A model generated the notes under the pieces. It had not been told where the DNA came from, searched no databases, and saw only the letters and a program-made list of their open reading frames with translations. 64,000 nucleotides of DNA from an endosymbiont of Lamellibrachia barhami. Lineage in GTDB: Bacteria; Pseudomonadota; Gammaproteobacteria; Chromatiales; Chromatiaceae. The stretch lies in NCBI RefSeq assembly GCF_011947365.2, contig NZ_JAAVSH020000001.1:3664523-3728522 (forward strand), read 5' to 3'. Below are positions 13,176 to 32,183 of the stretch, piece by piece (the stretch's first letter is position 1; every line of letters begins with the position of its first letter). A program made the translations under genes and the position numbers.

Positions 13176-13922
13176 ATGAGTGGCGATCAGCAAAACGAAA
13201 CCGATGACAAGAATAAGGCTGTGAGCGATACCGGCAAGCCCGAGCAACCTCAGGCGCGCATGGTGACAGTTTCCATCATGGGCAAACCCGCCCTGGTTCC
13301 CGATGACTCCACGATCATGCGGGCCATCGAGTACAGTGGCCAGCAGATCATCCGCGGAGCGGGCTGCCGCGAAGGCTTCTGCGGCGCCTGCGGCACTATC
13401 TACCGACTGCCCGGAGACTACCGGATTCATACCGGCCTTGCCTGCACCACCCTGGTCCAGGAGGGGATGGCACTCTCTCAGATACCATCCGTACCCCTTG
13501 AGAAAGCGGTCTATGACCTGGAAACGCTCACTCCTGACGTTGACACCATAAAAGCACTCTATCCTGTCGTCTTCCGTTGCGTGGCCTGCGGCACCTGCAC
13601 CAAGGCCTGCCCACAGGGACTTCAGGTCATGGATTACATCCAGTCCGCCATGCGCGGTGACATTGCCGAACTCATGGAACTCTCATATGAGTGTGTGGGC
13701 TGTGGGCTGTGCGCCCTGCGCTGCCCTTCCGAGATCATCCAGCACAAGGTCGCCATTCTCGGCAAGCGCCTCTATGGACGCTATCTGCGCAAGGAGAGTA
13801 AAGAACTCGACATCCGCATCCGGCAGGTAAAGAACCACGAGTACGATGGCGAGTATGCCGAATTGATGTCCCTTGACAGGGAGGCTCTCAGCGAGCGCTA
13901 TTACGCGAGAGATACGGAGTAG
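13176..13922 (+). CDS. Fumarate reductase/succinate dehydrogenase-like iron-sulfur protein (soluble FrdB/TfrB-N type)
   Basis: [2Fe-2S] motif CREGFCGACG...C and two 4Fe-4S motifs CVACGTCTKACP, CVGCGLCALRCP; adjacent to FrdA-like flavoprotein. Confidence 0.85.
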   Translation: MSGDQQNETDDKNKAVSDTGKPEQPQARMVTVSIMGKPALVPDDSTIMRAIEYSGQQIIRGAGCREGFCGACGTIYRLPGDYRIHTGLACTTLVQEGMALSQIPSVPLEKAVYDLETLTPDVDTIKALYPVVFRCVACGTCTKACPQGLQVMDYIQSAMRGDIAELMELSYECVGCGLCALRCPSEIIQHKVAILGKRLYGRYLRKESKELDIRIRQVKNHEYDGEYAELMSLDREALSERYYARDTE

Positions 13923-14025
13923 CACGGCCTCCCTGCAGGATTAGGGAAGGTAAGACAACACCACTTTCGGGGCGCTTGAAGGGGCAGTTTCTTAGCGACA
14001 ACGAGCGTGCTTTCGGAGGAAATGA

Positions 14026-15759
14026 ATGTATCCGGATTATCTAAAAGATTCGCTTGAAAAGGTGAATCAGACTCGATCCAAAAGGCTGGAGCTGGCGAAG
14101 AGCGACAAGCCGGTCTATCCACCGATGAATGCGGCGGAACGGGAGGACGTGCTCTCCAAGTTCCACCCCGATTCCGCGTCCGCCGCACGCAGTCACATCC
14201 GCATCGGCCCCAACAAAGGTGAGCAACTCACCACTGAGATCACCGATCTGCTCGAAGCCCATTCGATGCTCGACCCGAAGCGGATGGAGGAGAGTCTCGC
14301 CAACCCCGATTACGAGACCGATATGCTGATCATCGGTGGTGGCGGCGCTGGCTGTTGGGCCGCTATCACTGCCATTAAAAACGGCATCAAACCGATGATC
14401 GCCACCAAGCTGCGCCTGGGTGACGCCAACTCCATGATGTCCGAGGGCGGCATGCAGGCCGCCGTTACACCACAGGATTCGCCCACCCGGCACTATCTGG
14501 ACGCCATTGGCGGCGGTCATTTTGACAACAAGCCCGAACTGGTTCGCGCACTGACCGAGGATGGCCCGGAGGTCGTCAGGGAACTGGAGAATCTGGGTGT
14601 CATGTGGGACAAGATGGAGGACGGTTCGCTCCAGGTCCTGCATGGCGGCGGCACCTCGCACAAACGCATGGTCTCCTGCCGCGACTACATCGGCGCCGTC
14701 ATCATGCGTACCCTGATGGACGAGGTGGAGAACCACCCGGACGAGATCAGCGTGCGTGAATTCGAGCCGGCCATCGAGCTGCTGCTGGACGACAAGGGTC
14801 AATGCGCCGGCGCCGTCCTCTACAATCTGGACACCGAGCAGTTCATGGTGGTCAGGGCCAAGACAACGGTGATCACCACCGGCGGCTTCGGACGGCTGCA
14901 TATCCGCGGTTTTGCCACCACCAACCACTATGGCGCCACCGGCGATGGACTGGTAATGGCCTATCGCGCCGGCGCCAACCTCAAATTCATGGATTCGGTC
15001 CAGTACCATCCCACCGGCGCTATTTACCCAGAGCAGATCGCCGGCTTCCTGATTACAGAGAAGATCCGCGGCGCCGGGGGCCAGCCACTGAACAAGGACG
15101 GCTAACTCTTCGTCTTCCCGCGTGAACCCCGAGACGTGGAGAGCGCCGCCATCATCCGCGAATGCAGCGACGTGCGGAACATGGGTGTCGATACCGCCTA
15201 CGGTCGCAGCGGAGTGTGGCTGGACTCGCCACTCATCGACATGATCCATGGCGAGGGTTACACCAGGCATCAGTTCCCCGGCATGTGCCGGGCGTTCGAC
15301 AACTACGACATCGATATCGTCAAGCAGCCGATGCTGATCTATCCCTCGCTCCACTATCAGAACGGCGGCATCGAGATCAACGAACGTTGCGAGAGCAATA
15401 TTCCGGGCCTGTTCATCGCCGGCGAGGCGTCGGGCGGCGTCCACGGCCGCAACCGCCTGATGGGTAATTCGGTGCTCGACTATAACGTCTTCGGCCGCCG
15501 CGTCGGCAAGCAGGCCAGCGAGTACGCCAAGTCGGTAAAACTCGGCAAACTCAGCCTGGAGCATGTCACCGCCTACGCCGGAGAGATGACTGACCAGGGC
15601 ATCGACAGCGATCTGATCTCGCCGGTGATCCTGCCCTCCTATACGCCAGAGGACGTCAGGCTGCATCAACTGGCCCGCCTCGGCAATATTCCGGCGCGCC
15701 ACTCCATACTGCGCAGCCGGATCGGTTGTGGTTGTGGCAATGGGAAGGAAGGCAAGTGA
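14026..15759 (+). pseudogene. Fumarate reductase-like flavoprotein subunit interrupted by one in-frame TAA at 15103-15105
   Basis: ORFs 14026-15105 and 15136-15759 are in the same frame; concatenated protein reads ...QPLNKDG*LFVFPREPRDVESAAIIREC..., continuous with the intact paralog at 54381-55991. Confidence 0.85.
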
Positions 15760-29871: not shown

Positions 29872-29951
29872 CTAGCAGTTTGACGAAACAGTTCAATCTG
29901 GATCCTGCAAGCAGTCGCAGGATTCAGGTGCAAATTTACTGAGGAAAAAAC

Positions 29952-32183
29952 ATGACAGAACAGACATCAACGATTGTTTGGACAAAAACGGATGAAGCCC
30001 CCGCGCTGGCGACCTACTCTTTTCTGCCTATCATCAAGGCATTCACGGAAGGGACTGGCATCAATATCGAGACAAGGGATATCTCTCTTGCGGGCAGGAT
30101 CATCGCAAACTTCCCCGATAATCTGGGCGACAACCAAAAACAATCTGATGATCTGGCCATATTGGGTGATCTGGCGAAGAAACCGGAAGCCAATATCATC
30201 AAACTGCCCAATATCAGCGCCTCGATCCCACAGCTGAAGGCCGCTCTCAAGGAGCTTCAGGAGCTGGGCTATGACCTCCCGGACTATCCCGAGAATCCGA
30301 AAGACGATGCAGAGAAGGAGATCAAGGCCAGATACGCCAAGGTCCTGGGTAGCGCAGTCAACCCTGTTTTACGAGAGGGAAACTCCGACCGCAGAGCGCC
30401 GGGCGCGGTAAAGAATTATGCGAAGCAGAACCCGCACTCCATGGGCGCCTGGAGCTCTGACTCGAAATCCCATGTCGCCACCATGAGCAGCGGGGATTTC
30501 TGTGCCAACGAGAAATCCGTGACCATGTCCGAGGCAACCGACGCAAAAATCGAGTTTGTCGCCAAAAACGGAAGCGTTACCGTTCTGAAAGAGAGCATAC
30601 CGCTGGAAGCCGGTGAGGTGGTCGACGCAACATTCATGAGCAAAAATGCCCTGACCAAATTTCTCGGGGAGCAGGTGGAAGATGCCAAGCAGCAGGGTGT
30701 ACTCTTCTCCCTGCACATGAAAGCAACCATGATGAAGGTCTCAGACCCGATTATTTTTGGTCACTGCGTCAAGGTTTTCTATAAAGACGTCATAGATAAA
30801 CATGCGGATGTCATCGCCGAACTCGGCGTCAATTTCAATAACGGCCTGGGCGACCTTTACGCCAAGATCGAAAATCTGCCGGCGGACAAAAAGGCCGAGA
30901 TCGAAGCGGATATCCAGGCGATCTACGCTGAGCGTCCCGCACTTGCAATGGTGAACTCCGACAAGGGCATCACCAACCTGCATGTACCCAGCGATGTGAT
31001 CATCGACGCCTCCATGCCCGCCGCGATTCGCACCTCCGGGCGGATGTGGAACTCCGACGGCAAGCTGCAAGACACCAAGTTCGTTATCCCCGACCACAGC
31101 TACGCACCCCTCTACCAGGCCACTATCGAGAACTGTATCGCCAACGGCGCGCTGGATCCGACCACCATGGGTACCGTCCCCAATGTGGGGTTGATGGCGA
31201 AGAAGGCGGAGGAGTACGGCTCTCATCCCACCACCTTCGAGGCTCCAGGGGACGGAACCATCCGTATCGTTGACGCCAATGGCGACAATATCCACGAGCA
31301 GGCTGTCGAAGAGGGTGATATTTGGCGCATGGTGGCGGTGAAAGACGCCCCCATCCAGGACTGGGTAAAACTGGCCGTGACCCGCGCCAAGGCAACCGGT
31401 TGGCCTGCAATATTCTGGCTGGATGATGACCGGGCGCACACCGTTGAACTCAAAAAGAAAGTAGAAAAATATCTGCAGGACCACGACACCACAGGTCTGG
31501 ATATCCGCATCATGGGCGTCTACGAGGCGGCGAAACTCTCTGTTGAGCGGATGCGAGCGGGTGAAGACACCATCTCCGTAACCGGCAACGTACTGCGTGA
31601 CTACAACACCGATCTCTACCCGATCCTCGAAGTGGGCACCAGTGCAAAAATGCTCTCCATCGTGCCACTGATGAACGGTGGTGGGTTGTTCGAGACCGGT
31701 GCTGGCGGATCTGCACCAAAGCATGTCCAGCAGATCAGGCAGGAAGGACACCTGCGGTGGGATTCACTGGGTGAATTTCTTGCGCTTGCCGCATCCATGG
31801 AGCATCTGAGCATTGTATCCGGTAATGCAAAGGCGAAGGTGCTGGGGGATACGCTTGATCAGGCAACGGGCAAGTTCCTGAATAACAACAAGTCACCTTC
31901 CCGCAAGGTCAATGAGCTGGATAACCGGGGAAGCCATTTCTATCTTGCCATGTACTGGGCGCAGGCGCTGGCTGAACAGACTGGTGATGCAGCGCTTCAG
32001 GCGCGTTTCGCGCCACTGGCGAAGCAGCTTGAAGAGAATGAGGCAACGATCGCTAAAGAGCTGATTGCGGCACAGGGCGAGTCTGTCGACCTGGGCGCTT
32101 ACTATTGCCCGGATGCTGAAAAAATGGAAAAAGCCATGCGTCCCAGCACCACCTTCAATGCAGCATTGGATGCGCTTGGTTGA
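29952..32183 (+). CDS. icd: Monomeric NADP-dependent isocitrate dehydrogenase
   Basis: 743 aa, [53 protein letters not shown]. Confidence 0.96.

Follow-up and report, generated by a model that had tools for sequence, protein, structure and literature searches.

The window, i.e. the whole 64-kb stretch of DNA analysed here, holds a reductive TCA cycle (rTCA) island of sixteen genes, all on the plus strand at 13149–32183, in which hdr and flx genes are interleaved with the korABCD genes. This raises the question of whether the island encodes a single NADH-driven machine that supplies KorABCD with reduced ferredoxin. A preliminary description of this DNA had proposed that NADH oxidation is coupled to reduction of ferredoxin and of fumarate or a disulfide, and had offered this integration of carbon fixation and bifurcation as possibly new. 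Both the island and the idea of an NADH-driven complex with two acceptors have in fact been in print since 2019 (PMC6315080, PMC11636981). What is added here is a wider, rearranged synteny and a stop codon within frdA. On balance we lean towards the reading in which Hdr-Flx of this Endoriftia-type rTCA island bifurcates electrons from NADH to fumarate, via FrdAB, and to ferredoxin for KorABCD.

Gene content and organization

ORF listing, translations and domain searches were utilized in order to assign the genes of the island (Table 1). All sixteen genes named previously were recovered, in the order frdB-frdA-hdrC-hdrB-korD-korA-korB-korC-hdrA-flxD/mvhD-flxC-flxB-flxA-aclB-aclA-icd, the start of frdB being ambiguous between ATG codons at 13149 and 13176 in the same frame. 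Six overlaps were found from the ORF coordinates, namely hdrC/hdrB, korA/korB, korC/hdrA and flxB/flxA (4 nt each), korD/korA (8 nt) and flxD/flxC (1 nt). The genes from hdrC to flxA are tightly coupled, except that korB and korC stand 227 nt apart; this gap contains a repeat element, related copies of which lie at 33019–33093 and 43923–43954. The many 1–4 nt overlaps described earlier thus hold, at 1–8 nt, within hdrC to flxA but not for the whole run, where gaps separate frdB from frdA (103 nt), frdA from hdrC (49 nt), flxA from aclB (119 nt), aclB from aclA (88 nt) and aclA from icd (80 nt). In a promoter and terminator scan of the island, promoters were not in excess over shuffled sequences and no clear internal break was seen.

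Table 1. Features of the rTCA island and its continuation, with positions in the window.
Feature	Position	Strand	Assignment and evidence
frdB	13149–13922	+	TfrB N-terminal-like 2Fe-2S and 4Fe-4S subunit; ORF, Fer4 domains, weak TfrB model match
frdA	14026–15759	+	TfrA-like flavoprotein with in-frame TAA at 15103–15105; best NCBIfam match of both halves is TfrA
hdrC	15809–16216	+	Two 4Fe-4S motifs; HdrC models, Fer4
hdrB	16213–17091	+	Two complete CCG motifs; HdrB model 174 bits; CCG domain x2; 9sfi/8rvv/5odc HdrB
korD	17102–17362	+	Ferredoxin subunit; ORF, sequence; conserved as korD in relatives
korA	17355–18521	+	NF006412, 562.6 bits, above cut-off
korB	18518–19516	+	2-Oxoglutarate:ferredoxin oxidoreductase beta models
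Repeat element between korB and korC	19517–19743		Absent in 4 of 5 compared genus loci; rearranged copy in L014
korC	19744–20313	+	2-Oxoacid:ferredoxin oxidoreductase gamma models
hdrA	20310–22256	+	FAD and Fe-S subunit, candidate bifurcating site; HdrA2 model 774 bits; full-length alignment with 5odc_A, 8rvu_a
flxD/mvhD	22273–22719	+	FlpD, PF02662
flxC	22719–23810	+	FdhB-like; 51-nt in-frame insertion absent in relatives compared
flxB	23816–24847	+	Fer4_22
flxA	24844–25668	+	NAD-binding subunit; NAD_binding_1, DHODB_Fe-S_bind; match to sulfhydrogenase gamma subunit 9nez_C
aclB, ATP-citrate lyase small subunit	25788–27062	+	ATP-grasp_2, Citrate_bind
aclA, ATP-citrate lyase large subunit	27151–29871	+	CoA_binding, Succ_CoA_lig domains
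icd, monomeric isocitrate dehydrogenase	29952–32183	+	PF03971, 1305 bits
Rubrerythrin-like diiron protein, conserved island companion	32283–32819	+	PF02915; homologs in other islands
acn, pntA, pntB, mdh (island continuation)	35744–41894	+	Translations, PNT domains

The reading frames of both ATP-citrate lyase subunits are open, and KorABCD was assigned as 2-oxoglutarate:ferredoxin oxidoreductase, its likely substrate being deduced from family and context. The cluster extends beyond its earlier stated end to 41894, through two rubrerythrin-like genes and a convergent cNMP-binding gene to acn-pntA-pntB-mdh. Further downstream, at 45304–46432, a chain-length-determinant-like polysaccharide export gene seems to be split into two overlapping ORFs.

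Conserved residues of the Hdr and Flx subunits

All seven subunits of FlxABCD-HdrABC were found, comprising the NAD-binding FlxA, the Fe-S subunits FlxB and FlxC, FlxD (MvhD), HdrA, HdrB and HdrC, and the expected motifs were retained in the three Hdr subunits. Residues 4–644 of HdrA align with the solved bifurcating HdrA 5odc_A (631 bits). In this alignment Glu359 and Lys412 correspond to Glu356 and Lys409 of 5odc, which we take to matter for the HdrA flavin, and the CSxxCC segment is retained. Loss of the residues needed for a bifurcating FAD had been named earlier as a finding that would speak against an integrated complex; the FAD domain, the Glu and the Lys are all in place. HdrB is similar to HdrB chains of solved structure, and the cysteine motifs of its two CCG domains are complete. 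FlxA resembles the gamma subunit of a sulfhydrogenase, and FlxC is similar to formate dehydrogenase beta subunits from HdrABC complexes. Values of dN/dS were low, about 0–0.12, for all sixteen genes.

Linkage of fumarate reductase genes to hdr and kor

HdrA loci were collected by HdrA similarity alone, and the count was limited to loci flanked by 8 kb or more on each side, near-copies included. On this basis frdA was found near hdrA in 28 of 44 loci and was missing from the remaining 16. The linkage was seen in about eleven phyla and in no fewer than six gene orders, including frdBA-hdrCB-korDABC-hdrA-flxDCBA in Pseudomonadota, korDABC-flxDCBA-hdrA-hdrCB-frdBA in Heimdallarchaeota, hdrBC-hdrA-flxDCBA-frdBA in Bacillota and Treponema, korDA-hdrA-flxDCBA-korBC-hdrCB-frdBA in Ignavibacteriota, hdrCB-korABCD-hdrA-flxD-frdBA in Omnitrophota and hdrA-flxD-hdrCB-frdBA in Methanofastidiosum. 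The presence of frd changes five times on the HdrA tree, compared to a mean of 14.3 for shuffled labels, near-copies explaining part of this clustering. The frd-hdr-kor-flx linkage for which a synteny search had been suggested recurs in relatives and distant Proteobacteria, and in other orders in other phyla. As the order seen here recurs in all named close relatives as well as in distant Proteobacteria, it is not due to chance. Since frd stays linked to hdr despite reordering of the genes, a functional link explains the data better than a frozen neighbourhood, and the synteny favours fumarate as the high-potential acceptor; such linkage is not in itself proof of contact or of bifurcation.

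It is also conceivable, if rather unlikely, that Hdr-Flx bifurcates electrons from NADH to ferredoxin and to the disulfide of a DsrC/TusE-type protein, FrdAB then being a neighbour that receives its electrons from the dithiol so formed or from a different donor. The genome encodes four proteins of the DsrC family, both cysteine-rich motifs of HdrB are retained, and many Hdr-Flx loci are without frd. Mitchell et al. (2024) name both a direct and a DsrC-like route (PMC11636981). The island however contains no dsrC, and frd has been re-joined to hdr across many phyla in differing orders, which fits fumarate as the acceptor better.

The combination of frd, kor and hdr was seen in four phyla. In seven loci, five from Heimdallarchaeota and one each from Ignavibacteriales and Omnitrophota, kor, frd and hdr (with or without flxABC) are found with no ATP-citrate lyase nearby. 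A speculative and in our estimate unlikely extension is that FrdAB, HdrABC and KorABCD make up, together with FlxABCD or a different donor, a redox module that is portable beyond the Proteobacterial rTCA cycle and has fumarate as its true high-potential acceptor. In those Heimdallarchaeota, Omnitrophota and Ignavibacteriota where no ATP-citrate lyase lies alongside, the module would then be a fumarate-driven 2-oxoglutarate synthase. The broad frd-hdr-kor linkage provides test systems outside the uncultured tubeworm symbionts.

Predicted electron flow

In the reading favoured here, with fumarate as acceptor, FlxA would oxidise NADH, and the electrons would travel by way of FlxB/C and then FlxD to the HdrA FAD, where they would be bifurcated. 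The high-potential stream would run through HdrC and HdrB and, either directly or with a dithiol carrier in between, via the Tfr-like FrdAB to fumarate. Ferredoxin, or KorD, would be reduced by the low-potential stream, and KorABCD would then use the reduced ferredoxin for the carboxylation of succinyl-CoA to 2-oxoglutarate, with AclAB, Icd, Acn, Mdh and PntAB serving the remainder of the cycle. At potentials of −320 mV for NADH, +33 mV for fumarate/succinate and −420 to −500 mV for ferredoxin, the reaction of 2 NADH with fumarate and 2 oxidised ferredoxin would release roughly 33–49 kJ/mol, and is therefore feasible. If the published model is true, the most difficult reduction of the rTCA cycle would be paid for, within a single soluble machine, by the exergonic reduction of fumarate from the cycle itself, and carbon fixation in these very productive symbioses would become cheaper.

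We infer the direction of flow, bifurcation, fumarate as acceptor and a physical complex from the domain identities, the HdrA alignment with its Glu and Lys, the HdrB CCG motifs, the active-site stretches of FrdA in an intact relative, the frd linkage and the low dN/dS, together with the published co-expression and the prior proposal of the same model. The split of NADH electrons put forward in the preliminary description fits this anatomy, the residues and the synteny. Counting against the model are the interrupted frdA of this genome, the departing expression of tfrAB, the 16 loci without frd and three loci (L015–L017) with the order hdrB-kor-hdrA-flx-acl but without hdrC or frd in the upstream 8–10 kb. 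A single transcription unit had likewise been proposed. In Endoriftia, kor, hdr, flx and acl show operon-like co-expression, intergenic regions included, from which tfrAB (frdA/frdB here) is excepted (Mitchell et al. 2024, PMC11636981).

A quite improbable alternative is that ferredoxin for KorABCD comes mainly from Rnf or another route, and that Hdr-Flx runs in reverse, from ferredoxin and a thiol or succinate to NADH, under an oxidative TCA cycle. Three RnfC-family loci above cut-off and a citrate synthase gene are present in the genome, and the in vivo direction of Hdr-Flx is listed as unknown by Mitchell et al. (PMC11636981). Yet the genes interleaved with kor, in this island as in those of relatives, are those of Hdr-Flx rather than rnf, and Hdr-Flx travels with acl.

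The interrupted frdA gene

Alignment of the intact FrdA of a relative with E. coli FrdA revealed that the fumarate reductase active-site stretches VQYHPTG, TEKIRG, PRD, LHY and HGRNRL are retained. The His that carries covalent FAD is replaced by Asn relative to 3p4p_A, which sets the protein apart from quinol:fumarate reductase/SdhA with covalent FAD. Scores against the Tfr models were below the curated cut-offs, at 215.8 bits for the N-terminal part versus 718 for TfrA, a score lowered by the interrupted frame, and at 25–33 bits versus 385 for TfrB.

The TAA interrupting frdA, which the preliminary description does not mention, lies ahead of PRD, LHY and HGRNRL, at a position where the other five genomes of the genus are open, so that a truncated product would be without these stretches and the gene as sequenced would not encode the full enzyme. 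Pairwise dN/dS of frdA is 0.04–0.08, on par with the rest of the island, and any loss must consequently be very recent; with five intact relatives, an old pseudogene was rejected. The window is free of N, but other parts of the genome contain stretches of N, duplicated sequence and what is likely a misjoin. On account of these faults and of the insertion in flxC, the stop is possibly a sequence error. The TAA is thus either a very recent mutation or an error of sequence. All six genomes of the genus also carry a second frdB-frdA pair of this kind, here at 54381–56657 on the minus strand and divergent from a citrate synthase gene (57003–58451, plus strand); it is a candidate substitute if the stop is real. 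That frdA was truly and recently lost in the species, Hdr-Flx now using this second pair or another acceptor, would agree with a TAA confined to one genome of the six but is very improbable given the normal dN/dS and the assembly faults.

Sequence quality also bears on form II RuBisCO. The gene cbbM looked truncated (L122, G000:C1:1010000-1026999), and loss of RuBisCO was considered and rejected; the break is located where stretches of N and a duplicate of the neighbouring kinase gene occur, and past the break the sequence is not collinear with genome G005. This truncation is probably an assembly fault, and warns on the sequence quality of the genome.

Distribution among relatives

HdrA is carried by all five other genomes of the genus and is 97–98% identical to that of the endosymbionts of Escarpia spicata, Escarpia laminata and Lamellibrachia anaximandri; judged by this sequence, the DNA presumably stems from an Endoriftia-group endosymbiont of a tubeworm. 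Within the class, few genomes have ATP-citrate lyase of this type (4 of the 369 sampled, this one included). Plasmid carriage of the island was rejected, as HdrA matched only two distant plasmid records. In ten loci of other Beta- and Gammaproteobacteria a homolog of the rubrerythrin-like protein sits between frdA and hdrC, a position that suggests a role in e.g. oxygen or iron handling for oxygen-sensitive enzymes.

Comparison with known systems

The cluster of the Escarpia laminata symbiont was described by Rubin-Blum et al. (2019), in whose proposal korABCD and tfrAB, interspersed with flxABCD-hdrABC, encode a single electron-shuttling complex (PMC6315080). The locus of that symbiont (L014) is the same island as the one reported here. 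The clusters of the E. laminata symbiont, Endoriftia and, by description only, Thioflavicoccus mobilis have the same genes, with tfrAB-korABCD-hdrABC-flxABCD interleaved and accompanied by acl, icd, acn, pntAB and mdh; the frdA stop, the flxC insertion and the korB-korC repeat set the present island apart from those of E. laminata and Endoriftia. In Thiomargarita and Maribeggiatoa genomes, frdA upstream of hdrA/mvhD had been noted earlier. Our literature search, perhaps not exhaustive, found no biochemical demonstration of the shared NADH-driven machine.

FlxABCD-HdrABC of sulfate reducers and other anaerobes, as far as Ramos 2015 is cited in PMC6315080, has the same seven subunits with matching domains, whereas here korDABC separates hdrB from hdrA, and frdBA lies ahead of hdrC. 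A bifurcating fumarate reductase with Flx-Hdr has been proposed for Pseudoclostridium thermosuccinogenes (preprint 2019, cited in PMC7282089). There too fumarate reductase and Flx-Hdr share one operon, but the organism is a fermentative succinate former and its 'succinate operon', as described in that citation, is without kor and acl. The thiol:fumarate reductase TfrAB of methanogens is similar in that FrdA has TfrA as its best match and FrdB and HdrB correspond to consecutive portions of TfrB; TfrB is however one protein there and separate genes here, with scores far under both cut-offs. Methanogen HdrABC-MvhAGD (5odc) shares HdrA, HdrB and FlxD/MvhD homologs with key residues retained. CoM-S-S-CoB is not expected in the symbiont, and the MvhAG hydrogenase is here replaced by FlxABC, which would oxidise NADH.
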